Shown one piece after another: positions 6,531 through 20,410 of a DNA stretch of 64,000 bases. The notes beneath the pieces were generated by a model that saw nothing but the letters and a program-made list of their open reading frames with translations, did not search any database and was not told the DNA's origin. Made by a program: the position numbers and the translations under genes. Within the stretch, counting starts at the first letter, position 1. Each line of letters opens with the position of its first letter. The DNA is from Aestuariimicrobium kwangyangense DSM 21549. GTDB lineage: Bacteria; Actinomycetota; Actinomycetes; Propionibacteriales; Propionibacteriaceae. The DNA is taken from positions 682,001 through 746,000 of the forward strand of contig NZ_ATXE01000001.1 in NCBI RefSeq assembly GCF_000421525.1. The letters are read 5' to 3'.

Positions 6531-8102
6531 TCACTTGAGCTTCTTGTCGGTGGCCCACTTGTCCATGTCGGCCTGGATGGACTTCTTGGCGTCCTCGTAG
6601 CCGGCCTGCTTCAGCTTGTCGCGCATCTCGTTGATCGCCTTCTCGGGGTCGGCGAACTTGCCGTACTGCAGCTGCGGGATGTACTGCGAGAACACCGAAC
6701 CCATGGCTGCCAGGGTCGACTCGATCTGGGTCTTGTCGAAGATCAGCGTCGAGTACGGGTAGTCCTTGGCCATGCCGTCGAGTTCCTTGAACAGGGCCTC
6801 CTTGTTGGCGGGCTGGTTCACGCGCGGCAGCTCGAACTCGTCCATGCGACCGGCCCAGAAGTTGGTGCCGAGACCGTCCTTGGCGGGGTCGAACCCCTTG
6901 GGCTGGTCGATCTTCTTGTCGCTGGTCAGCACGTAGTCGGAGCCCTCGATGCCGAAGTTCATGAGGCGGTAGCACTCCTCGTCGTTGCGGATCAGGTCGT
7001 AGACCTTCAGCGCACGCTCGGGGTGCTTGGAGTTCGCCGCGACCGCCATGGCGCCGTGGGTCTTGATGTCACGGAAGATGTTCTTGTTCTCCTGACCGAA
7101 CCAGAACATCTTCGGGTTGGCATCGGGCTGGCGCGTGGCCATGGTGGTCTCGACGCCGAGGAAGGTCTGGGTGTGGTGCTGGTCGGCACCCGACAGACCG
7201 GCGAAGAACTCCTCGCGGGTGTCGCCGTCGTAGTTGAGGGCGTCCTCACGCCAGACGCCGATCTCGGCCCACTGCTTGGCGATCTTGGCGGCGGCGAGCA
7301 GTTCGTCCGACTCGGCGTACCAGGAACCGACGGTGTAGGGGTCGGCAGCGGTCGTCTGGAAGGGGTAGTAGTTCCCGGCGCTGAGCTGCTGGATGGTCTG
7401 ACCATCGGTGTGGCCCTGCAGGTAGCCGGTGAGCGGGGTCTCGTTCGCCCCGGCGACGTCCCACGGGAAGGCCTTCTTCTGGTTCTGCTTGACCCAGGTG
7501 AAGTAGGTGGTGAGCTCGTCCCACTTGGTGATGGTGCCGTCGGGGATGCCGGCCGCCTTGGCCCAGTCGCCACGGTAGAAGTAACCGTGGTTCGTCCACT
7601 GGGTGTAGTTGTCCTCGGGCATGAAGTAGATCTTCCCGTCGGGAAGCTTGCACAGGTCCCAGTCGCCCTTCTTGTTGACCTGCTCCCAGGTCTTGGGCGC
7701 ATTGGCCTTGAGGATCTCTTCGTCGAGCGCGTAGAAGGCACCCTTCTGGGCGTTCTCCCAGCCGAACAGCCAGTCGGTGGCGGTCGTGATCAGGTCGATC
7801 TTCGAGTCGCCCGACAGCAGCTGGACGTTGTACTGGGTCTGCCAGTCGGCCCACTCGACGTAGTAGAGGTCGAGGGTGGCGTTGGCCTTCTTGGTCAGGA
7901 TCGGGTTCAGCTTGGCCAGCATCTTCTGGTAGCGGCCGTTGGTGGGCTTGTCGCCGAGCACCAGCATGGTGATCTTGACGGGAGCGCCACCGGTCGGGTC
8001 TGAGCTGGCGGTGTCCTTGCTGCAAGCGGCCAGGCCGGCGGCTGCGGCGACAGCGGCGACCGAACCGAGCACGGCCCGGCGAGAGAGTGCGGAGTTGAAC
8101 AT
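6531..8102 (-). CDS. Lipoprotein sugar-binding protein of an LplA/YtcQ-type ABC importer
   Basis: A 523-residue lipoprotein. SRRAVLGSVAAV plus the lipobox LAACSK places the lipidated cysteine at C27. The body is a family 1 solute-binding fold; the C-terminal third resembles the DUF3502 extension of LplA/YtcQ-type proteins. It should capture an oligosaccharide outside the cell and deliver it to the two permeases encoded upstream. The start ATG has AAGGGA 6 nt before it. Longer in-frame starts would invade the promoter-proximal permease. Ninety-one bases separate it from the upstream permease. No ATPase gene is present, so a shared MsiK-type ATPase elsewhere is likely (known for this transporter class). 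Confidence 0.88.
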   Translation of the reverse strand: MFNSALSRRAVLGSVAAVAAAAGLAACSKDTASSDPTGGAPVKITMLVLGDKPTNGRYQKMLAKLNPILTKKANATLDLYYVEWADWQTQYNVQLLSGDSKIDLITTATDWLFGWENAQKGAFYALDEEILKANAPKTWEQVNKKGDWDLCKLPDGKIYFMPEDNYTQWTNHGYFYRGDWAKAAGIPDGTITKWDELTTYFTWVKQNQKKAFPWDVAGANETPLTGYLQGHTDGQTIQQLSAGNYYPFQTTAADPYTVGSWYAESDELLAAAKIAKQWAEIGVWREDALNYDGDTREEFFAGLSGADQHHTQTFLGVETTMATRQPDANPKMFWFGQENKNIFRDIKTHGAMAVAANSKHPERALKVYDLIRNDEECYRLMNFGIEGSDYVLTSDKKIDQPKGFDPAKDGLGTNFWAGRMDEFELPRVNQPANKEALFKELDGMAKDYPYSTLIFDKTQIESTLAAMGSVFSQYIPQLQYGKFADPEKAINEMRDKLKQAGYEDAKKSIQADMDKWATDKKLK

Positions 8103-10396: not shown

Positions 10397-10426
10397 ACGA
10401 TACAAATCGCTTCGCGCGAGTGTCAA
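10397..10426 (-). promoter_or_regulatory. Sigma-70-type promoter of the carbohydrate operon
   Basis: On the minus strand TTGACA (10426-10421) and TATCGT (10402-10397) are separated by 18 bp, the best consensus promoter in the window. The spacer contains an imperfect TCGC/GCGA dyad that could be an operator, but no regulator is encoded nearby. The resulting leader would be about 165 nt. Confidence 0.65.
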
Positions 10427-10550
10427 GGGAAATCATGGTTGCGTTGCCATTTCGTGATCTTGCTTGTCACGGGGTGGTCGGTCGCCGGGGTGGGAGTGGG
10501 GCTGCTGGGGCGGCGGGTGGGCTCTCGTCCGGCGCAAACCTCACCTCCTG

Positions 10551-10604
10551 CGCAGACTCTCGCCGCCGAACGCGAGAGTTCGTCCCCGAAGGCGAGAGTG
10601 TGCG
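10551..10604. repeat. Nested inverted repeat in a 305-bp gene-free stretch
   Basis: The stretch 10427-10731 holds no convincing gene. CGCAGACTCTCGCC (10551-10564) is inverted at 10591-10604 with one mismatch. Inside the loop CGAAC and GTTCG form a second hairpin. It lies between two divergently transcribed units, so it is not an obvious terminator. Function unknown. Confidence 0.45.
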
Positions 10605-10731
10605 CCCGACTGGTCGGGTGGGACCAGGTGGCGGGGTGAGGGGGTCCACGTCGACCCGGTCCGGGGCGAGCAGGCGTCCCAATGGCGACCCCCGCTGTTT
10701 TCCACAACGAGGGTGTAGTAAATATGGACCC

Positions 10732-11025
10732 ATGACCGAAGAGCGCCCCACCCTGACCCTGACCGAGACCCACCACTGCGCCTGCGGGGAGCATGACTCC
10801 GAGCTTCCCGAACTCGACGCGCGCACCATCCCGCATGCCATCCGCCACGGGGCCATCCTCGGCGCCCTGGGTCAGCTGAGCCCCGGATCCGGCCTGGTGC
10901 TGGTCGCCCCCCATGACCCACAGCCGCTGTTGCGTCAGATCGACGAACTGTTCGGCGATGCCGTCACCATCAGCTACGACCAGCGCGGCCCGGAGGCCTG
11001 GAAGCTGCGGATGGTGCGCTCCTGA
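10732..11025 (+). CDS. DUF2249 domain protein
   Basis: A 97-residue soluble protein. An N-terminal HHCACGEHD segment (about residues 15-23) with clustered His/Cys could bind metal. The remainder (ELDARTIPHAIRHGAILGAL, SGLVLVAPHDPQPLL) is a DUF2249 domain, a small TusA-like fold. DUF2249 proteins often neighbour hemerythrins and nitric-oxide-related genes, but their biochemical role is not settled. A TAGTAA hexamer at 10716-10721 is 10 nt before the ATG, suggesting little or no leader. It overlaps the hemerythrin gene (TGATG), so the two are translated together. Confidence 0.75.
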   Translation: MTEERPTLTLTETHHCACGEHDSELPELDARTIPHAIRHGAILGALGQLSPGSGLVLVAPHDPQPLLRQIDELFGDAVTISYDQRGPEAWKLRMVRS

Positions 11026-11510
11026 TGTGCAGCTACTGCGGCTGCGACTCGATCGACGTGATCGGCAGGTTCATGAGTGAGCACGTCGAGATCATCAATG
11101 CCACCGGCGACCTGCGCCGGGCGGTCGAGGCGGACGAGCCCCCACTCGTCCACCAGCGGGTCGCGGAGGTCGCCGGGCTGCTCGGCCCGCACACCGGTGC
11201 CGAGGAGGTGGGCCTGTTCAGCGTGATGAAGCGCCAGGACGAGTTCACCGACTACATCGGCCAGCTGTGCGGCGAGCACGTCACCCTGGACGACCTGCTC
11301 GAGCGGGTGGCCGAGGCCACCGATCCAGCGGTGCGACAGCACTTGTTCGAGGCCTTCGAGCAGGCGTTCCGCACCCACATCGACCGGGAGGACAATGCAC
11401 TCTTCCCCGCCGCTGCGGTCTCGTTGGTGGGGCCGGACTGGGACGAGGTCGACTCCCTCACCCACGACCACGACCACACCACGGGCCGCCCGCACGCCCA
11501 TCAGCACTGA
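11025..11510 (+). CDS. Hemerythrin HHE domain protein with N-terminal CxxCxC
   Basis: A 161-residue protein. It begins MCSYCGCDS, a cysteine cluster, followed by a four-helix hemerythrin domain whose candidate iron ligands are H in MSEHVEI, H and E in GPHTGAEEVGLF, H in CGEHVTLD, and H and E in RTHIDREDNALFP. Such domains carry a diiron centre binding oxygen, NO or peroxide. The tail is histidine-rich (HDHDHTTGRPHAHQH). The gene is coupled to the DUF2249 gene by a TGATG junction. A role in oxygen, NO or redox sensing or in iron-sulfur repair is an inference from the family. Confidence 0.82.
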   Translation: MCSYCGCDSIDVIGRFMSEHVEIINATGDLRRAVEADEPPLVHQRVAEVAGLLGPHTGAEEVGLFSVMKRQDEFTDYIGQLCGEHVTLDDLLERVAEATDPAVRQHLFEAFEQAFRTHIDREDNALFPAAAVSLVGPDWDEVDSLTHDHDHTTGRPHAHQH

Positions 11511-11627: not shown

Positions 11628-12524
11628 TCAGGCGCGTCCGCCGAGCAGTGCCCGGTGCAGGTGGTGGGCCGCCTCGACGACGTCGTCGGGAAGTGGTGAT
11701 GCCCCCGTCACCTGTCGTGCCGCGGAACCTCCCGACCACACCGGGACGAGCGGTGACAGGTCGGCCAGGGCCGCGGCCACCTCTGTGGCGCCCGCGGCAT
11801 CGGTACCGCAGTGGGCGCCCACCACCGCCACCCTGGCCTGACTCCTGATCGCCGCTGCGCGCCAGTCGTCCGGTGGCAGGTCGGCCCCCAGGTAGATGAC
11901 CCGAGATCCCAGTCGACGCAGACACGTGGCGAAGGCCAGCAGCGCCAACTCGTGACGCGCGCCCGGTGGGAGTCCCACCAGCGCCGTTGGCCCACCCCGG
12001 TCGGGGGCCTCATGGAACAGGTGCGAGAGAGCGCGCATCAGCTCGGCGGTGATCTGGTGCTCCTGGGCGACCGAGATCTCACCCCTGGCCCACGCCTGCC
12101 CGATCCGGTGCAACTGAGGCATCAGCCAGGTCCTGACCACCTGCTCGAACTCGCGGGAGTCGAGCGCGCCGTCGACGGTGTCGGCGAGGCGTCTGGGATC
12201 GAGGGAGACCACCGCCTCGACCAGGTCGAACGCGACCCGATCGTGGCCATCCGCGTGATCGTCACCGTCAGGCCGACCCACGTGTCCGCCAACCTGTCTG
12301 CCGTCGAGTGAGGCTCCGGCCAGGCTCGCCGCGGCCTGGGCCGCCCGCATGCCTCCCTCCACCCGCGCCGCCATCTCGCGCAGCAGGGCCACCTGGCCCG
12401 CGTCGTAGAGGCGATAGCCACCCTCGGTCCGGGAGGGGTGGATGATGCCGTAGCGCCGCTCCCAGGCGCGCAGGGTGCTCTTGGAGACACCGGACAGTGC
12501 TGCAGCCTGGCTGACTGTGTACAC
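11628..12524 (-). CDS. litR: MerR-family transcriptional regulator with B12-binding domain (LitR/CarH-like photoreceptor)
   Basis: A 298-residue regulator. Residues 1-68 are a MerR winged helix (YTVSQAAALSGVSKSTLRAW, then RRYGIIHPSRTEGGYRLYD). Residues about 95-170 are the helical B12-capping domain with the W-x9-EH motif (W145, E155, H156). Residues 178-298 are a Rossmann-type cobalamin domain. Family members (Thermus CarH, Streptomyces LitR) bind adenosylcobalamin in the dark, repress carotenoid genes as tetramers, and let go in light. Here the lower-ligand region reads PGARHELA: H191 is kept, but the usual Glu and Gly of ExHxxG are both Ala. The residue after W145 is also Ala. It is divergent from idi-crtE across 137 bp that holds 11-bp direct repeats, so it probably controls both directions. 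Confidence 0.85.
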   Translation of the reverse strand: MYTVSQAAALSGVSKSTLRAWERRYGIIHPSRTEGGYRLYDAGQVALLREMAARVEGGMRAAQAAASLAGASLDGRQVGGHVGRPDGDDHADGHDRVAFDLVEAVVSLDPRRLADTVDGALDSREFEQVVRTWLMPQLHRIGQAWARGEISVAQEHQITAELMRALSHLFHEAPDRGGPTALVGLPPGARHELALLAFATCLRRLGSRVIYLGADLPPDDWRAAAIRSQARVAVVGAHCGTDAAGATEVAAALADLSPLVPVWSGGSAARQVTGASPLPDDVVEAAHHLHRALLGGRA

Positions 12525-12580
12525 CCTTCCCCCTCCTGTTCCCCGTCCCGGGCGAGCCCGACAAAGATGGCACGGATTGC

Positions 12581-12609
12581 TTGCGCCGACCGATCGGCCC
12601 AGCTACGTT
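12581..12609 (+). promoter_or_regulatory. Promoter of the idi-crtE-crtI-crtB operon
   Basis: TTGCGC (12581-12586) and TACGTT (12604-12609) are separated by 17 bp. The predicted start site, near 12616, gives a 45-nt leader. The -10 and start region are covered by the 11-bp direct repeats. Confidence 0.5.
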
Positions 12610-12637
12610 GGTACAACATTAGACAAACATTCGACAG
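12605..12637 (+). promoter_or_regulatory. Three tandem 11-bp repeats, putative LitR/CarH operator
   Basis: ACGTTGGTACA, ACATTAGACAA and ACATTCGACAG follow each other without gaps (12605-12637). The last two agree at 9 of 11 positions. The same unit, consensus ACRTTNNACAA, recurs twice in the P450/photolyase promoter region. CarH-type tetramers are known to bind tandem 11-bp repeats overlapping the promoter, which matches this layout. Binding by the adjacent regulator is an inference. Confidence 0.6.
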
Positions 12638-12661
12638 CTTCGTCGACTTGAGGGGGACGAC

Positions 12662-14311
12662 ATGTCGCAAACTTCCACCCAGGGGGGCTCTCCCTCGGGC
12701 GATGACGTGGTGTTGCTCGACGACGCGGCCCGACCCATCGGCAAGGCCGACCGGTTGACGGTGCACTCGTCGACCACTCCGCTGCACCTGGCCTTCTCGA
12801 CCTACCTGTTCAACGCGCACGGCGACGTGCTGCTGACCCGCCGGGCCGTCACCAAGGCCACCTGGCCAGGGGTGTGGACGAACTCGGCGTGCGGGCACCC
12901 TCGTCCGGGAGAAGACCTGGAGTCCGCCGCCCGGCGCCGGATCAAGGAGGAGTTGGGACTGACCGTGGGGCCCCTGGTGCCTCTGCTGCCCGACTTCCGC
13001 TACCGCGCCACCGATGCCTCGGGGGTGGTGGAGAACGAGGTCTGCCCGGTCTACGCAGGCTTCGTGACCGATGACGACCCGACCCCAGACCCCGACGAGG
13101 TGGCCGAGTGGGTCTGGGTGCCTTGGCGCAGCCTGACCACCGCCGTCGCTGCCGTCCCGCAGGCCTACAGCCCGTGGGCCGTGCTGCAGGTGCCCCAGGT
13201 CGACCGCGCCCTCTCGGCGGGCATGGCCGGGGGTCTGACCGTCACCCCGGACCTCGCCGCCGCGAAGCGGGAGGTCGACCAGTTGTTGCGCGAGACCCTG
13301 GTCACGCTCGGCGCCCAGTGGGCCGTGCACACCGAGGGCCTGGGGGTCGACGTGCTCGCCGAAGACCTGCCGGACTGGTTGCTCGGCCTGCTCGCCAACG
13401 GAGGCAAGCGGCTGCGCACCACGATGGTCTACTGGGGATTCATCGCCGCCGGCGGTGTGCAGGACGGTCAGGGGCACCGGCACATGGTGCGTGCCGCTGC
13501 CGCCATCGAACTGCTGCACCTGTTCGCATTGATCCACGACGACGTGATGGACGAGTCCGACCAGCGCCGCGGTCACCCCTCCGCGCACGTCCGTGCCACC
13601 CGCTGGCACCTCGCACACGGGGCGCGGGGCGACAGCGACGTGTTCGGACGCAACCTCGCGATCCTGCTGGGCGATCTCGCCCATGCCCTCGCCGACGGCC
13701 TGGTCGACAGCCTGCCCGAGTCGATGCGCCGCATCTGGCGGGAGTTGTCGGTGGAACTGATCGCCGGACAACGTGCCGACCTCACGGGGGCCGCGGCCGG
13801 GCGCCTCGACCGCCCCCACGCCGAGCACGTGGCGCGCACCAAGTCGGGGCGGTACACGGTCACGCGGCCGCTGCAGTTGGGGGCGGCCGCGGCTGGCGCC
13901 CAAGACCGGGTGCTCGACTGCCTGACCACCTGCGGAGACCATCTCGGACGAGCCTTCGCCCTTCGGGACGACCTGCTCGGGGTCTGGGGCGACCCGGCCC
14001 AGACCGGCAAGCCCGCCGGCGATGACCTGTTCGAGGGCAAGGCCACGGTGCTGCTCTCGCTGGCCAGGGAGAACCTGACCGGGGAATCGGCCGCCCTGCT
14101 GGCCAGGGTGGGCACGCCCGCGTTCACCCATGAGGACGTGCCCGTCCTGGCCGATCTGATGCGAGAAGCGGGGGTGGAGTCGATGGTGGAGTCCATGATC
14201 ACCGATGCGGTCGACGACGCCATGGCGTGCCTGTCCGGCGCACCACTGGCCCGCGCCGGCGTCAACGGTCTGACCGAGGCGGCGCAGGTGCTGGCATGGC
14301 GCTCCGCATGA
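12662..14311 (+). CDS. idi-crtE: Fused isopentenyl-diphosphate isomerase / geranylgeranyl diphosphate synthase
   Basis: One 549-residue frame joins two enzymes. Residues about 15-180 are a type I IPP isomerase: TNSACGHPRPGED (catalytic Cys C77), Nudix-like RRRIKEELGL and ENEVCP. It interconverts IPP and DMAPP. Residues about 198-549 are a trans-prenyltransferase with GGKRLR, the first aspartate motif DDVMD (293-297) and a second motif DDLLGVWGD (436-444). It should make C20 GGPP for carotenoids. No start codon with a ribosome site or stop lies at the junction, so the fusion appears real. The start ATG follows AGGGGGA. crtI overlaps the end by ATGA. In most carotenoid clusters these are two genes. 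Confidence 0.9.
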   Translation: MSQTSTQGGSPSGDDVVLLDDAARPIGKADRLTVHSSTTPLHLAFSTYLFNAHGDVLLTRRAVTKATWPGVWTNSACGHPRPGEDLESAARRRIKEELGLTVGPLVPLLPDFRYRATDASGVVENEVCPVYAGFVTDDDPTPDPDEVAEWVWVPWRSLTTAVAAVPQAYSPWAVLQVPQVDRALSAGMAGGLTVTPDLAAAKREVDQLLRETLVTLGAQWAVHTEGLGVDVLAEDLPDWLLGLLANGGKRLRTTMVYWGFIAAGGVQDGQGHRHMVRAAAAIELLHLFALIHDDVMDESDQRRGHPSAHVRATRWHLAHGARGDSDVFGRNLAILLGDLAHALADGLVDSLPESMRRIWRELSVELIAGQRADLTGAAAGRLDRPHAEHVARTKSGRYTVTRPLQLGAAAAGAQDRVLDCLTTCGDHLGRAFALRDDLLGVWGDPAQTGKPAGDDLFEGKATVLLSLARENLTGESAALLARVGTPAFTHEDVPVLADLMREAGVESMVESMITDAVDDAMACLSGAPLARAGVNGLTEAAQVLAWRSA

Positions 14312-15786
14312 CGGGCCGCCACACCGTCGTGGTCGGGGCCGGGCTGTCGGGGCTCGCGGCCGCGATGCACCTGGCCGGTGCGGGAGAGCGGGTGACCTTG
14401 CTGGAGCGGGAGGACCAGCCCGGCGGCCGCAACGGTTCCCTGGAGCAGGACGGGTTCCGCTTCGACACCGGCCCCACCGTCTTCACCATGGTCTCGCTGC
14501 TGCAGGAGGCCTTCTCAGCGGTGGGCCGACGGGTCGAGGACTACGTCGGCATGACCCTGCTCGACCCTGCCTACCACGCGTTCTTCGCCGACGGCTCGCG
14601 ACTGCTGGTTCGCCCGGGACACGAGAAGATGCGTGAGGTGATCGCCCAGGAGTGCGGGGAGCACGATGCGCGGGCCTTCGACGACTTCGTCGTCTGGTTG
14701 CGTCGGCTGAACGACGTCGAGGTGCCCCATTTCATCGACACGAACTTCGACTCCCCGTTGGGTCTGGTCCGATCCCCAAGGGCGGTGGCCGAGTTGCTGC
14801 GCCTGGGCGCGTTCCGCAGTCTGGGACCGGAGGTGGCCAGGCGCTTCCGCGACGAGCGACTGCACCGGGTGTTCAGCTTCCAGGCCATGTACGCGGGCCT
14901 GGCGCCGCGGCAGGCCCGCGCCCTCTACGCCGTGATCACGTACATGGACTCCATCGAAGGGGTCTGGTTCCCCGAGGGTGGCATGCACGCGGTCCCGCGG
15001 GCCATGGCACGGGCGGCCACGGATGCCGGGGTCGAGATTCGCTATTCGTCCCCGGTCGAGCGCGTGGTGAGGCGACAGGACGGTTCGGCTGGGGGCGTGG
15101 AACTCGAGTCGGGGGAACGGATCTCGTCCGATGCGGTCGTGGTGACGGCAGACCTACCGGTGGCCTACGAACGACTGCTTCCCGACCTGCGGGGGCCACG
15201 GGTGGCCCGACGAGGACGGTTCTCGCCCAGCGCCGTGGTCTGGCACCTGGGGGTCCGGGGTGGGGCTCCCTCGGGTCACGGACACCACAACATCCACTTC
15301 GGACGGGCCTGGGACTCCGCCTTCGACGACCTGTTGGTGCGCGGCCGGGCCATGCGCGACCCGTCGCGGTTCGTGGCCATGCCGTCCTTGGACGACCCGA
15401 CCGCAGCCCCCGCGGGGAGCAACACCCTCTACGTGCTCGAGCCGGTTCCGAACCTCGAGGTGGGCAGGCTCGACTGGACGACGGAGGGTCCACGACTGCG
15501 GGAGCGGATGCTCGCCTTCCTGGCCGGCGCCGGCTACCCCACCGACATCGTCACCGAGCAGCTGGTCACCCCGGCCGACTGGAAGCAGCAGGGGATGGCG
15601 GCCGGGACCCCCTTTGCACTGGCCCACACCATCGCCCAGACCGGCCCCTTCCGACCCAGCAACGTCGACAAGCGAGTTCCGGGCCTGGTGTTCGCGGGCT
15701 CTGGCACCACACCCGGGGTGGGAATCCCGATGGTGCTGATCTCGGGCAAACTGGCCGCCCAGCGGGTGAGGGAGATGACCCGGTGA
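14308..15786 (+). CDS. crtI: Phytoene desaturase
   Basis: A 492-residue FAD-dependent desaturase converting phytoene to lycopene. The dinucleotide fold VVVGAGLSGLAAAMHLAG lies at residues about 6-23. The family C-terminal signature VFAGSGTTPGVGIPMVLISG is present near the end. It is membrane-associated in known relatives. The ATG at 14308 overlaps the idi-crtE stop (ATGA). An in-frame ATG at 14296 would add four residues. The gene overlaps crtB in turn (GTGA), so the three genes form one translationally coupled operon. Confidence 0.92.
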   Translation: MTGRHTVVVGAGLSGLAAAMHLAGAGERVTLLEREDQPGGRNGSLEQDGFRFDTGPTVFTMVSLLQEAFSAVGRRVEDYVGMTLLDPAYHAFFADGSRLLVRPGHEKMREVIAQECGEHDARAFDDFVVWLRRLNDVEVPHFIDTNFDSPLGLVRSPRAVAELLRLGAFRSLGPEVARRFRDERLHRVFSFQAMYAGLAPRQARALYAVITYMDSIEGVWFPEGGMHAVPRAMARAATDAGVEIRYSSPVERVVRRQDGSAGGVELESGERISSDAVVVTADLPVAYERLLPDLRGPRVARRGRFSPSAVVWHLGVRGGAPSGHGHHNIHFGRAWDSAFDDLLVRGRAMRDPSRFVAMPSLDDPTAAPAGSNTLYVLEPVPNLEVGRLDWTTEGPRLRERMLAFLAGAGYPTDIVTEQLVTPADWKQQGMAAGTPFALAHTIAQTGPFRPSNVDKRVPGLVFAGSGTTPGVGIPMVLISGKLAAQRVREMTR

Positions 15787-16676
15787 ACCAGCTCGAGCTC
15801 GGCTACCGGCGCTGCGGTGAGCTCACCCGCCAGTACGGCACCACCTACTACTGGGGGGCACGGCTGTTGCCGCCGGCCCAGCGCAGGGACGTGTTCACCG
15901 TCTACGCGCTCTGCCGCCTGGCCGACGACATCGTGGACGAGCCGGACCGGGTCGACCTGGCCGTGCCCCAGCAGGGCACCTCGGCCGAGCGGCTGGCCGC
16001 CTTCCGCGCCCAGTTCTTCGAGGCCCTCGCCGTGGGCGGGTCGCAGGAACCCGTGATGGCCGCCATCGTCGACAGCATCAACCGCCGTGGCACCGACCCC
16101 GAGTGTTTCGAGCGCTTCTTCGCAGCAATGGCCGCCGACCTCGACCGCACCACGTGGGAGACCTGGGACGAGCTCCGCGAGGTCTACATGGAGGGCTCGG
16201 CCGCCGTCATCGGCGAGATGATGCTGCCGGTGCTTGAGCCCTACACACCTGAGGCCAAGGGCCCGGCCCGGGCACTGGGCAACGCCTTCCAGCTCACCAA
16301 CTTCCTGAGGGACGTGGCGGAGGATCTCGACCGCGGACGCGTCTACCTGCCGCAGGCCGATCTGCGGCGCCACCACGCCGATCCTTGGCTGCGCGAGGTG
16401 ACCCCGCAGTGGCGGGCCATGATGACCGAACAGATCGCCAGGAACCGGGGGCTCTACGCGGAGGGTCAGCGTGGCCTGGCGATGCTTCCCCCCGCCTCCC
16501 GACGCTGCGTCGGTACCGCGTTGGTGCTCTACAGCCGCATCCTCGACCGGATCGAGCGCGCCGACCATGACGTCTTCTCCGGGCGGATCAGGGTGCCCGA
16601 CTCCGAGAAGCTTGCGGTACTGGTGCGTTCACTCGTGGTGGGAGTCCCGCGGGTCGACTTCGGCGCTCGGGGCTGA
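15783..16676 (+). CDS. crtB: Phytoene synthase
   Basis: A 297-residue squalene/phytoene synthase condensing two GGPP to phytoene. The first Asp-rich motif is DDIVDE (near residue 47) and the second is FLRDVAEDLDRGRVYLP (near 175). YALCRLADD and QLTN are further family landmarks. The GTG start is chosen because it forms a GTGA overlap with the crtI stop. The 3' end overlaps the convergent crtU gene by 48 bp, so each transcript is antisense to the other there. Confidence 0.93.
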   Translation: MNQLELGYRRCGELTRQYGTTYYWGARLLPPAQRRDVFTVYALCRLADDIVDEPDRVDLAVPQQGTSAERLAAFRAQFFEALAVGGSQEPVMAAIVDSINRRGTDPECFERFFAAMAADLDRTTWETWDELREVYMEGSAAVIGEMMLPVLEPYTPEAKGPARALGNAFQLTNFLRDVAEDLDRGRVYLPQADLRRHHADPWLREVTPQWRAMMTEQIARNRGLYAEGQRGLAMLPPASRRCVGTALVLYSRILDRIERADHDVFSGRIRVPDSEKLAVLVRSLVVGVPRVDFGARG

Positions 16677-18323
16677 TTCCCGGGATCGGCGTCCACCAGC
16701 GTCCACCCTGGGGGCGAGCAGTCCACGCAACGGCACCGTCCAGACGTCGACCCCCTGCACCCCCCACCCCTGCAGCAGCTGGTTGGCCGCCTGGAAGCCG
16801 GTGGTCGCCGCCCGCTCCATCAGGGCCACGGGTTGGTCACAGCGCACCCAGTCGCCGGCCAGCACCAGCCGGGGGGAGGGAGTCGCCACCCCGGGACGCT
16901 CGTCCCACGGGTCGGGGGTGATCAGCCCGCAGTCGTCCCGCACGAGCACCTCCCGGTGCAGGACCGCCGACGTGGCCGTCTCGGGGTAGGCGCGATGCAG
17001 CTCTGACTCCAACGCACTCACGATCGCATCGGCCGCGGCGGGATCGTCCATCACGTTCGCCGGGCAGGCGTAGGCATGCAGTTCGACCACGGATCCACCA
17101 TGCTCACTGGCCCAGGTCGCCGCGCCGGCCTCGAACCGTTCGAGCACGGAGATGTTGTCCAGCGGGCCGTAGCCCGCCGTCCCGAGGAAGGGGGCACGGT
17201 CGGGGGACACTGGCGTCCCCAGCCACAACCTGACCACCACGAAGGGCGGGGCGTTGCGGGTGCCTGCCACCCGCCCGGCCCATGCGGGATCGACACCGGG
17301 CATCCCTGCCACCAACTCACGGGCCGTTCGCGGGTCGGTCGCCAGTACGCAGGCGTCGGCCTCGAGGACGACGTCCGTGAGGTGCACGCGGACACCGCGA
17401 CCCCCAAGATCGGTGGAGGCAGAATCGGTGGGGGCAGGTTCGGTGTGGGCAGGATCGGTGGGGGCAGAATCGGTGGGGGCAGGATCGGTGTGGGCCCCCT
17501 CCGATGGTCCGACGTCGATCCGGGTCACCGGCGACCCCGTCAGCACCCTCACGCCCAGATCGCTCAGGTGGCGCCCCAGCGGCGCCCAGAGGCGGGTGTC
17601 GTAGTCGTCGTCGGGCACGTCGAAGAGCAGGCCCTCGGCCGACCCCATGAAGTAGGTGTGGAACATGGCGACCAGTTCGCCGGCCCCGAACTCGCGTGGG
17701 TCGGCGAAGAACGACCGGGCGAACACCTCCAGCGCCAGGTCACGGGCGGGCTGGGGGAACCGGAGCCGGTCGAGGAAGTCGGCCGCGGACTGACCGTCAT
17801 AGGCGGCGTGCGTGCCGGGGAACCGAGTGCTCAGCAGTTCAAGGGCTGCGGGCAGGTTCACCCGGCTCAGCGAGCGCAGCGTGAACGCAGGGCTGCGCAT
17901 CACGAACCGCAGCACCGACCACGGCGGGGTGGTGGGCAGGCCGGCGAACGAGTCCCGCATGCCGTCGGGGCGCTGCAGCGGGTAGTCCTCGATCGGACGA
18001 AGGAAGTCCAGCCGGGGATCGACCCGCTTCAGCAGGGCCCGCAGGTTGTAGTACTGACGGAAGAAGGCATGGAAGCCGCGGCTCATGGTTCGCCCGTCCG
18101 GCAGACGCCATGCCGCCACTCGGCCGCCCAGGCGGTCGGTCGCCTCGAGCAGGGTCACCCCGACGCCGGCCTCCGCCAACACGGTGGCGGCCGCCAGTCC
18201 GGCGATGCCCCCTCCGACCACGACGACGTGCCGCGACCCGTCCGCGCGCGGGCTCCCGGAGGGCCCGGGGTGACGGACGGCCCGTCGGTCGCGACCGGGG
18301 AGTTGCCGGTCCACGGAGCTCAT
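16629..18323 (-). CDS. crtU: Carotenoid phi-ring synthase / isorenieratene synthase (beta-carotene desaturase/methyltransferase)
   Basis: A 564-residue FAD-dependent enzyme. VVVVGGGIAGLAAATVLAEA near residue 30 is the FAD-binding fold. GFHAFFRQYYNLRALLKRVD and the C-terminal QGVDVWTVPLRGLLAPR match actinobacterial CrtU. The family converts the beta-ionone rings of beta-carotene into aromatic rings, giving isorenieratene. An unusual in-frame insertion of TDPAP/TDSAP-type pentapeptides, encoded by 15-bp tandem repeats, lies near residue 290. The start ATG at 18323 overlaps the crtYd stop (ATGA). The longer open frame upstream reads through crtYd and is not used. Confidence 0.88.
   Translation of the reverse strand: MSSVDRQLPGRDRRAVRHPGPSGSPRADGSRHVVVVGGGIAGLAAATVLAEAGVGVTLLEATDRLGGRVAAWRLPDGRTMSRGFHAFFRQYYNLRALLKRVDPRLDFLRPIEDYPLQRPDGMRDSFAGLPTTPPWSVLRFVMRSPAFTLRSLSRVNLPAALELLSTRFPGTHAAYDGQSAADFLDRLRFPQPARDLALEVFARSFFADPREFGAGELVAMFHTYFMGSAEGLLFDVPDDDYDTRLWAPLGRHLSDLGVRVLTGSPVTRIDVGPSEGAHTDPAPTDSAPTDPAHTEPAPTDSASTDLGGRGVRVHLTDVVLEADACVLATDPRTARELVAGMPGVDPAWAGRVAGTRNAPPFVVVRLWLGTPVSPDRAPFLGTAGYGPLDNISVLERFEAGAATWASEHGGSVVELHAYACPANVMDDPAAADAIVSALESELHRAYPETATSAVLHREVLVRDDCGLITPDPWDERPGVATPSPRLVLAGDWVRCDQPVALMERAATTGFQAANQLLQGWGVQGVDVWTVPLRGLLAPRVDAGGRRSRESAPSAEVDPRDSHHE
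17411..17494 (-). repeat. 15-bp tandem repeats inside crtU
   Basis: About 5.6 copies of a 15-bp unit (CGGTGGGGGCAGRAT on the plus strand) encode repeated T-D/E-P/S-A-P/H/S pentapeptides. The copies differ at a few positions and stay in frame. Such arrays change copy number by slippage and are often strain-variable. Confidence 0.85.
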
Positions 18324-18670
18324 CGTGCTTCCTCCTGCAGGGCGCGGCGCGGGCGTGCCCCCTGGTCGTCCCGGCTGCCCAGGCGGCACCACACGAGCAG
18401 CGTCAGGGTCACCATGGCCCAGCCGAAACCGAAGTCCTCCACCGGGATGTCCCACGGCGCCCGAAGCCCCAGGTGTTCCTCGGGGGAGTAGAGCACGATC
18501 GGGTTGCTGAGCTTGGTGAGCCACCCGTCGACCGGAACCTGGAAGGCGAAGACGATGGCCATGGCGAGCCAGTACTGCAGGCACCGGAACAGGCCGGTCC
18601 GCAGCCACACCACCTCGACCAGGGCGACGGCCACCACCGCGAACACCGTCAGGGCCGTGTACTCAGGCAT
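18320..18670 (-). CDS. crtYd: Lycopene beta-cyclase, CrtYd subunit
   Basis: A 116-residue membrane protein with three hydrophobic segments. The segment LSNPIVLYSPEEHLGLRAPW followed by DIPVEDFGFGW matches the conserved PxE(D/E)FGF region of the small heterodimeric lycopene cyclase subunits of actinobacteria. With CrtYc it should cyclise lycopene to beta-carotene. The ATG at 18670 is preferred: the family is about 100-120 residues, and it overlaps the crtYc end by 8 bp. It overlaps crtU by ATGA. Confidence 0.87.
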   Translation of the reverse strand: MPEYTALTVFAVVAVALVEVVWLRTGLFRCLQYWLAMAIVFAFQVPVDGWLTKLSNPIVLYSPEEHLGLRAPWDIPVEDFGFGWAMVTLTLLVWCRLGSRDDQGARPRRALQEEAR

Positions 18671-19049
18671 GGTCGGTCCCCCTCGGTGCTCCGACCCGCT
18701 CTCGTCGCAGCAGACCTCGCCCAGCCCTGTCCGGTCGGACGCGGTCGAGCACGGTGCCCACCGCCTCATAGGTCAGCAGGCCGCAGATCGGGATGACGAT
18801 GAAGAAGACGAGTTCCTCGAGCGGCATCGGGCCGATCATCAGCCCGCTGGAGAAACGAGGGCTGTAACTCCAGTGGTCGCGGATGATGCCCAAGACGTCC
18901 CAGGCGACGAACACCGCCACGGTGGGCAGCAGCGACACCAGCAGCCGTAGCGGTCGGCGATAGACGCGGGCGCGCAGCACGAACTCCAAGGGCAGGGTCA
19001 GGACCAGGCAGGCTGCCATCAGACCCAGGTACTGCAAGTGGTCATTCAC
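18663..19049 (-). CDS. crtYc: Lycopene beta-cyclase, CrtYc subunit
   Basis: A 128-residue membrane protein with three hydrophobic segments. It begins (GTG) VNDHLQYLGLMAACLV. The motif PLEELVFFIVIPICGLLTYE near residue 75 is the hallmark of the CrtYc/CarR lycopene cyclase domain. Together with CrtYd it forms the heterodimeric cyclase found in Brevibacterium, Corynebacterium and relatives. The GTG start overlaps the P450 stop (GTGA), showing coupling within the P450-crtYc-crtYd-crtU operon. Confidence 0.87.
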   Translation of the reverse strand: MNDHLQYLGLMAACLVLTLPLEFVLRARVYRRPLRLLVSLLPTVAVFVAWDVLGIIRDHWSYSPRFSSGLMIGPMPLEELVFFIVIPICGLLTYEAVGTVLDRVRPDRAGRGLLRRERVGAPRGTDHA

Positions 19050-20311
19050 TCCACACCTCCTGGTGGTGGGGTACGGCCGGGGGCGGCCTCGACACGGTTC
19101 AGGCTCACTCGCAGCCCGCGCAGCACGTATCCCTCGATCAGGTCGACCCACCCGATCTCGGGTTCGGAGACCACGACGGGGTGCAGCTCCAGCAACCTGC
19201 TCAGCAACACTTCCGCCTCGACGATCGCCAGCGGCTGCCCGGGGCAACGGTGTGCGCCGTCTCCGAAGGTGAGCCCGGTGGCATTCACCCCCGTGGGCAT
19301 GGCACGTCCGGGGCACAGGTCCATGGCGTCGGCCCCGACGGAACGCGGATCAGTGTTGGTCTGCCTCACCGAGACGTCGACCAGTTCGCCGGCTGGGATG
19401 GTCCACCTCTGCTCACCCTCGACCAGGTCGACAGGTTCTGTGGTGCGGCGGTAGAGGTGCCCGACCACCGGTTCGAGGCGCAGGATCTCGGCAAGGATCG
19501 TCCGCCTGCCCTCACCGTCGGCGGCACGGTAGCGGTCGGCGAGTTCGGCGTCGGTGAGCAGGTGCCAGGCAGCCATGGTGATGAACTCCCGGGTGGTCAC
19601 CATGCCGGCTGTGCCGTAGGTGACGCACTCGACGAGGATGTCGGTGTCGGTGTACCCCTCGGCGATCAGGTGACTGATGATGTCATCCTGGGGGTGTGCC
19701 CGGCGCTCCCGGATCGCCGGGCGGACGTCCGCGACATGGAAGCGGAGGATCGGCAGCAGCCCGTTCACCGCGGCCATCGCCCACTGTCGTCCGGTGCGCC
19801 CCAGGCGTGGTTTCGACAGGTCGAGAGGCGGCTGGCGGAAGAAGGTGGTCAGTCGTCGGGCCATCGCCGGAGTGCTGGAGTGGGTCAGTCCCACCACCGC
19901 CCCGGTAACCTCGACGCTGAAGTGGAGAGCCAGCAGGTCGAGGTCGAAAGGAGCGGTCCAGGCGACCTCGGCCAGCATGCGGTCGGCCGTGCCCTCCATT
20001 GACTCGAGGTAGCGCTGCTCGATCACGGTCGGGGCGAAGAAGCGGGCCACCTTCGAGCGCTGGGCATCGTGCACGGGCCCGTCGGACAGCAGGATCGGGT
20101 GGTTCCTGAGCCAGGTCTTCGGGATCCATTCGGCGGTGAACCCGGCCTGGGTGGTCTGGTGTCTCGCCCGCAACGCCTGGCGGGCGACCATCAGCGACCG
20201 GATCCGCCAGATGCCCTGCTCGTACGCGACCCGCGGTTCGGTCGATTCCCCGCGACGAACCGCCCGGCGCCGGGAGCGCGCCGAACCCGGTGCGCCTGCA
20301 TCGTCGCCCAT
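19046..20311 (-). CDS. Cytochrome P450, candidate aromatic-carotenoid hydroxylase
   Basis: A 421-residue soluble P450. The haem loop FGDGAHRCPGQPLA gives the thiolate at C356. E275 and R278 form the ExxR pair in the K helix. The I-helix segment is AGMVTT (235-240), in which the usual acidic residue is replaced by Val. As first gene of the crtYcd-crtU operon it probably modifies the carotenoid. A P450 next to aryl-carotenoid genes has been linked to 3-hydroxylation of isorenieratene in Brevibacterium linens, so hydroxylation is a reasonable but untested role. Redox partners are not encoded nearby. The SD-containing leader CTTGAGGGGGACG is identical to that of idi-crtE. Confidence 0.85.
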   Translation of the reverse strand: MGDDAGAPGSARSRRRAVRRGESTEPRVAYEQGIWRIRSLMVARQALRARHQTTQAGFTAEWIPKTWLRNHPILLSDGPVHDAQRSKVARFFAPTVIEQRYLESMEGTADRMLAEVAWTAPFDLDLLALHFSVEVTGAVVGLTHSSTPAMARRLTTFFRQPPLDLSKPRLGRTGRQWAMAAVNGLLPILRFHVADVRPAIRERRAHPQDDIISHLIAEGYTDTDILVECVTYGTAGMVTTREFITMAAWHLLTDAELADRYRAADGEGRRTILAEILRLEPVVGHLYRRTTEPVDLVEGEQRWTIPAGELVDVSVRQTNTDPRSVGADAMDLCPGRAMPTGVNATGLTFGDGAHRCPGQPLAIVEAEVLLSRLLELHPVVVSEPEIGWVDLIEGYVLRGLRVSLNRVEAAPGRTPPPGGVE

Positions 20312-20342: not shown

Positions 20343-20410
20343 ACCCTAGTGGGTCGATCACCGGTTTTGTGCACTGTTTGTTCAACGTTGAGCACGAGTC
20401 GGTCTAGGCT
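20343..20410. promoter_or_regulatory. Divergent promoters of the P450 operon and photolyase with two 11-bp repeats
   Basis: Leftward: TAGGGT (minus strand of 20343-20348), with the -35 region around 20367-20372. Rightward: TTCAAC (20381-20386), 18 bp, TAGGCT (20405-20410). Reading the minus strand, ACGTTGAACAA (20388-20378) is followed directly by ACAGTGCACAA (20377-20367). These match the ACRTTNNACAA repeats at idi-crtE and overlap both -35 regions. The layout suggests shared repression by the LitR-like protein. Confidence 0.58.

Follow-up and report, generated by a model that had tools for sequence, protein, structure and literature searches.

The regulator gene and its carotenoid neighbourhood

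The window, as used here, is the whole analysed stretch of 64,000 nucleotides, numbered from its first letter. It carries a litR/carH-type regulator gene on the minus strand (a plus-strand reading of 11628-12524 was rejected because of stop codons), which is divergent from the first gene of a carotenoid cluster. The following genes and domains were recognized.

11628-12524, minus strand: litR/carH-type regulator gene (litR), GTG start at 12524, 298 amino acids
12327-12521, minus strand: MerR-type helix-turn-helix, residues 2-66, recognition helix RAWERRY (Pfam and alignment)
12018-12227, minus strand: B12-binding_2 four-helix bundle, residues 100-169 (Pfam)
11715-11969, minus strand: B12-binding Rossmann domain, residues 186-270 (Pfam)
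10420-11510, plus strand: DUF2249 ORF and, after it, an ORF with a hemerythrin domain; convergent with litR
12662-14311, plus strand: isopentenyl diphosphate isomerase and polyprenyl (GGPP-type) synthase, idi-crtE, both domains continuous in one ORF of 549 amino acids
14296-15786, plus strand: CrtI-family phytoene desaturase (start chosen by eye)
15783-16676, plus strand: CrtB-type phytoene synthase, SQS_PSY (start chosen by eye)
16629-18236, minus strand: FAD-dependent oxidoreductase of the amine-oxidase family (start chosen by eye)
18320-19316, minus strand: two ORFs with lycopene cyclase domains (18320-18769 and 18663-19316)
19046-20311, minus strand: cytochrome P450 ORF
20416-21831, plus strand: DNA photolyase

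In the 298-residue protein Pfam recognized MerR_1 (3.7e-14), B12-binding_2 (3.3e-13) and B12-binding (7.9e-9), all above the cut-off; the RxWERRY recognition helix and the C-terminal four-helix bundle with Rossmann B12 domain, both characteristic of class I CarH/LitR proteins, are present. T. thermophilus CarH (TtCarH) was the top solved-structure match by sequence (1.8e-30), and it was also the best match of the predicted fold (5c8d, E 7.9e-19; mean pLDDT of the model 84.2, with residues 72-96 below 50). Among chains consisting of the cobalamin domain only, the H132A variant, 8c35, came first by fold, with E 6.1e-13 and a chain TM of 0.83. The NCBIfam CarH equivalog NF052513 was still the best family match, but its score of 130.6 bits lies under the cut-off of 400, and this counts against assigning the protein to the CarH/LitR light repressors.

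The idi-crtE ORF, divergent from litR, is the predicted main target of the regulator. AdoCbl is likely available in this host, since the genome has seven cobalamin riboswitches above the cut-off (an eighth match falls below it) and one cobalamin adenosyltransferase.

Pocket and interface residues compared with TtCarH

The window protein was aligned to the TtCarH reference sequence from plasmid pTT27, and is about 35% identical to it over the matched part. The residues concerned are located as follows.

12090-12092, minus strand: W145 (TtCarH W131), by alignment
12087-12089, minus strand: A146, at the position of TtCarH H132, by alignment
12057-12062, minus strand: E155-H156 (TtCarH E141-H142), by alignment
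11943-11963, minus strand: GARHELA (residues 188-194), the GxxH element with the lower-ligand H191 (TtCarH H177); A189 and A194 stand for TtCarH E175 and G180
11874-11888, minus strand: GADLP (residues 213-217), which supplies GxxxP in the light-response signature; D215 corresponds to TtCarH D201

The residues on which the original prediction was built (W145, E155, H156, Ala146 and ARHELA) were all found in the translation of 11628-12524 as claimed, and its statement that the cobalt-ligating His of Thermus CarH directly follows the Trp is right (PMC10442372). The Wx9EH motif is complete in W145, E155 and H156; its Trp, W131 in TtCarH, stacks against the adenosyl group (PMC10442372). With Ala146 after the Trp, the Thermus-type bis-His pair is absent. 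The light-response signature published as GxxW, EH, GxxH and GxxxP, which as given in the source does not include Glu175 (PMC11796333), and is that of SignatureFinder, is complete in the window protein (GQAW, EH, GARH, GADLP). The lower axial His is kept as H191.

A further departure, absent from the original prediction, concerns the Ser of the classic motif: G236 of the window protein stands in the column of TtCarH S222. According to one review, a CarH is recognized by two motifs, Wx9EH and ExHx2Gx41SxV/Tx22-27GG (PMC8156234). Of the second motif, read literally, the window protein has the His and the GG, and its Glu, first Gly and Ser are replaced by Ala, Ala and Gly. This mismatch counts against a CarH-like light response, and on account of it the protein was filed as CarH/LitR-like instead of as a strict two-motif CarH; judged from its sequence it should nevertheless work like a CarH, although the literal two-motif rule excludes it.

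The altered Glu, Gly and Ser could also mean that the protein binds B12 and is no photoreceptor, being a sensor of the AdoCbl level, or that it is independent of B12 and follows some other input, as M. xanthus CarA does. CarA is indeed a precedent for a B12-independent relative of CarH (PMC8156234), but it has lost the Trp of Wx9EH (PMC9304148), which the window protein retains as W145. We consider such an explanation unlikely, and further evidence against it comes from the homologues and from the second operator-like site.

As to the oligomer interface, its Arg, Gly and Asp sites are presumably residues 176, 192 and 201 in TtCarH numbering. In the alignment R190 and D215 take the places of the Arg and Asp that are paired at the dimer interface in TtCarH; G206 retains one of the interface glycines, and Pro174 occupies the other (TtCarH Gly160). 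Such an Arg-Asp pair was described as crucial, and in the myxobacterial survey reported in the same source the second glycine is often Pro as well (PMC9304148).

TtCarH (5C8D, 5C8E, 5C8F) and the window protein have in common the domain order, Wx9EH, the lower His, GxxxP, the Arg-Asp pair and the WERRY helix, and their surroundings share nearby phytoene synthase and photolyase genes and a tandem 11-bp repeat operator, predicted in our case. They differ in His132, Glu175 and Gly180, all Ala in the window protein, in Ser222, which is Gly, and in Gly160, which is Pro.

Variability of the altered sites among homologues

Homologue searches gave matches in 62 of 197, 103 of 293 and 36 of 296 genomes. 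From these, 80 wider regions were taken by hand, from the tops of the lists and for spread, so that the resulting 85 homologues form a non-random sample; the window protein is included in it, TtCarH is excluded, and a duplicate of the latter (L068) was dropped. The divergent litR/idi pair occurs in 29 of the 85, which include the window and Kineosphaera limosa, the nearest named relative (56%). We call crt-linked the 29 of the 85 homologues (again with the window) that adjoin at least two of idi, crtE, crtI and crtB; they are approximately 35-56% identical to the window protein.

In the 29 crt-linked homologues the three altered positions show the following residues.

Site 132: E 12, A 11, Q 3, H 1, L 1, S 1
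Site 175: A 12, G 5, D 4, V 4, S 2, E 1, C 1
Site 180: A 10, M 9, G 7, S 1, C 1, P 1

W131, E141, H142, H177, G199 and P203 are invariant in all 29, and 28 have the full signature GxxW/EH/GxxH/GxxxP. The invariance of the Trp, the Glu and the two His at such identities points to selection for adenosyl capping, and argues against a regulator that does not sense light through B12. The other 56 homologues have no His at site 132 (0 of 56), and the W/E/H/H core is present in 53 of them; the full signature is found in only 39, which counts against the reading as a light-dependent repressor.

Only six columns distinguish the window protein within the crt-linked set, none of them a discussed pocket site. 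That the regulator is a degenerate, non-functional relic, an idea for which the motif departures named in the original prediction are the only argument, is scarcely credible given these six columns and the intact frame, core, operator-type repeats and synteny. Motif decay special to the window protein was also rejected, because its relatives have the same departures.

In a Streptomyces-like genus, in which 22 loci were examined out of 44 genomes with a match, none of the 22 has a His directly after the Trp. The homologues of this genus (L186, L187, L222-L241) have ten residues, once eleven, from the Trp to EH instead of nine, and a strict Wx9EH search would miss them. At one of these loci (L227) an ECF-type sigma gene is divergent from litR; at another (L223) no sigma gene was found in the four adjoining ORFs scanned. 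Among the matches listed, 60 of 215 plasmid records, there was none from Streptomyces or Bacillus.

A sample of 396 genomes of the phylum yielded 41 listed places, of which 28 new ones were aligned. Site 132 is here A in 10, E in 7, R and Q in 3 each, S and L in 2 each and M in one; the core is complete in all 28, and site 175 is Glu or Asp in all 28. Outside the phylum, two contigs of Nitrospirota have His after the Trp, as does a single gammaproteobacterial contig with ER in place of EH.

A quick maximum-likelihood tree with 106 rows served for mapping these residues; L151_1 (no core), L167_1 (start wrongly extended) and L068 had been removed from it, and L186 and L187 stand in it twice as identical rows. 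By parsimony site 132 changed at least 38 times and the presence of Glu175 twice, and the core residues W131, E141, H142 and H177 changed 1, 0, 1 and 0 times; as 30 of the 101 inner branches are weak and TtCarH sits on a long branch, the exact counts are soft and it is the contrast between the sites that holds. A rare substitution at site 132 could be rejected on the basis of these 38 or more changes. Glu175 was apparently lost a single time, in the ancestor of a 60-row clade (support 99), and one row (L122) has it again. The loss of the Glu would thus be an old change of a large clade, not particular to the window protein, and a literal ExHxxG rule for CarH would discard this clade, in which the adenosyl-binding core is intact.

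The original prediction would be refuted by an alignment in which the Ala substitutions are standard in functional LitR proteins. Such an alignment was largely obtained: the substitutions are shared, and His at site 132 was counted in 1 of 29, 0 of 56, 0 of 22 and 0 of 28 homologues. As for function, published proteins that respond to light have Arg, Gln or Tyr at this site. The refutation is not complete, as no LitR with biochemical data was found within this particular clade.

The Ser of the classic motif (S222) probably has a role in binding the nucleotide tail. The altered Glu and Ser sites might therefore remodel the tail pocket in favour of a corrinoid other than DMB-cobalamin, with the light logic unchanged. 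This would fit the loss of Glu175 about once, maintained throughout the 60-row clade except for one row, and the Gly in the S222 column of 21 of the 29 crt-linked homologues. Ser, however, occupies this column in just 12 of all 85 homologues and in 3 of the 24 that retain Glu175, thus the column may be of no importance or only loosely aligned, and we regard a changed corrinoid preference as very unlikely.

Operator-type repeats

The operator of CarH is composed of tandem 11-bp repeats, nnnnTnnACAn (PMC9304148). Two candidate sites of this type are present in the window.

12616-12637, plus strand: two perfect tandem 11-bp CarH-type repeats, ACATTAGACAA ACATTCGACAG, in the litR/idi-crtE intergenic region; candidate operator
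20367-20388, minus strand: second tandem CarH-type pair, in the P450/photolyase intergenic region, by pattern match

The first pair finishes 24 bases ahead of the idi start codon, and possible imperfect repeats flank it at 12605-12615 and 12638-12648, as judged by eye. The 21-base pattern of the pair, with at most 3 mismatches, occurs once in the window (12616-12636) and in none of 100 shuffles. In the whole genome, with the same tolerance, it gave three matches at two sites, both in the carotenoid cluster, and none in the reversed control; two of the matches overlap at the litR/idi site and the third lies at 20368-20388, between the P450 and photolyase genes, this second site (20367-20388) being recognized by the 21-base pattern alone. 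The looser TnnACA pair was matched twice in the window, where 0.40 matches would be expected; 4 of 100 shuffles also reached 2.

Among the litR/idi intergenic regions, counted only at 60-400 bp (4 of the 29 divergent pairs, at 904-980 bp, were left out), at least one tandem TnnACA pair was present in 23 of 25, the window included; L114 and L153 are those without it. In the control of 200 rounds of dinucleotide shuffling the mean was 0.155 regions and the maximum 2. At the sequence level, the tandem direct-repeat operator of class I CarH/LitR is therefore present. The photolyase gene adjoining the second site is a further point against a regulator that is no photoreceptor.

Several loci that lack crt genes also have similar repeat pairs next to litR, and for this reason we suggest that the regulator may control its own gene there. 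A sigma-70 scan of 12400-12800 found no promoter to which the position of the repeats could be related, a point against the repressor reading. The predicted operator, together with a candidate regulon of two sites, would be a new, though modest, result. In two order-level relatives (L156, L159) two litR copies lie close together on the same strand, and in each a repeat pair stands upstream of one of them.

Light response in proteins without the upper His

In TtCarH, His132 is dispensable for AdoCbl binding: the H132A variant binds AdoCbl and forms the tetramer like the wild type, and light converts it to a Co(III)-water/hydroxide state (PMC10442372). In this 2023 study the variant remained mostly tetrameric in the light; an earlier report of disassembly is cited therein (PMC10442372). 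H132A (8C35-8C37) shares with the window protein the Ala after the Trp, which is natural in the latter, but it is an engineered single change with Glu175 intact.

CtMerR (8JBS, 8JBT), SasPcob and AbDPcob possess the light-response signature and, like the window protein, have no His after the Trp; the residue is Arg in CtMerR, Gln in SasPcob and Tyr in AbDPcob, compared with Ala here, and all three respond to green light (PMC11796333). In the description of CtMerR no bis-His state was seen in the anaerobic light-exposed crystal, and in solution the tetramer became monomer in the light (PMC11796333). The oligomer state of SasPcob and AbDPcob, examined without biliverdin, did not change in the light (PMC11796333); these photocobilins differ from the window protein in binding biliverdin in an added domain. 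As H132A mostly stays tetrameric and these two keep their oligomer state, release in the absence of the His is not a given. For myxobacteria, 'many' CarH homologues were stated to have the His (PMC9304148).

Streptomyces coelicolor LitR (class I), compared here by its published description, is likewise an actinobacterial B12-based photosensor of the MerR type for carotenoid genes, and differs in working through the ECF sigma factor LitS. The reports on it differ in sign, one describing light activation of litS (PMC12705666) and another derepression (PMC5401885), and this counts against a simple repressor reading. On LitR/CarH in propionibacterial or nocardioid bacteria no paper was found among the open-licence titles and abstract openings listed, which is weak evidence of absence; PMC5401885, in the portion available, names Propionibacterium solely for the MarR-type CrtR. 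'LitR' in PMC9279279 was discarded, as there it stands for 'litre'.

Proposed mechanism

Taken together, we read the window protein as an AdoCbl-dependent dark repressor which is released by light via a state other than bis-His, and which acts on idi-crtE and probably on the P450/photolyase region; we put the probability of this at roughly 0.83. The domains, the pocket core, the synteny, the operator-type repeats and the genes for AdoCbl supply are established from sequence, and AdoCbl binding, oligomerization, the light response, the sign of regulation and the form of the light state are inferred. In the dark AdoCbl would be held between two domains: the four-helix bundle, whose W145, E155 and H156 would surround its adenosyl group, and the Rossmann domain, whose H191 would lie below the cobalt. 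The holoprotein would be an oligomer whose helix-turn-helix domains sit on the tandem 11-bp repeats ahead of idi-crtE and block transcription, and the repeats between the P450 and photolyase genes would probably be occupied as well. Green or blue light would break the Co-C bond and the adenosyl group would leave; water or hydroxide, perhaps held by a Glu, would take its place instead of a second His. Loosening of the oligomer would then allow the expression of the carotenoid genes and perhaps of the photolyase.

This agrees with the original prediction of a B12-photoreceptor-like regulator. Its idea of altered ligand surroundings stands insofar as, lacking a His at site 132, the protein cannot form a Thermus-style bis-His light state through that residue; that this makes it unusual or a non-canonical sensor was not supported. 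From the alignments the window protein itself is ordinary, since the altered residues vary in most of the actinobacterial relatives examined. The site thought to be special is a labile one, and the Thermus bis-His state is therefore ill suited as a model for the B12 light repressors of actinobacteria. The kind of regulator and light sensing without the upper His are already known; what appears to be new, in a modest way, is that a large clade whose core is preserved apparently lost the Glu just once. A wider proposal, which we find doubtful, is that of an actinobacterial repressor clade marked by one old Glu loss, almost no His after the Trp, a water/Glu light state and a remodelled corrinoid tail pocket, a clade that motif-based CarH searches would miss as a whole.

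A paralogue in the same genome

The genome encodes a second MerR-B12 protein at 352829-353731 (6830-7732 of the fetched region L004, plus strand), 39% identical to the window protein over the match. No repeat pair was found in the fetched region around it. It has Ser after the Trp, and Lys replaces the Gly of GxxH. Its gene is divergent from that of a DUF4397 protein; DUF4397-like genes are also present in two litR-homologue loci, L150 (same genus) and L217, and on a Caballeronia plasmid (L069) an annotated DUF4397 gene follows a CarH-like gene.
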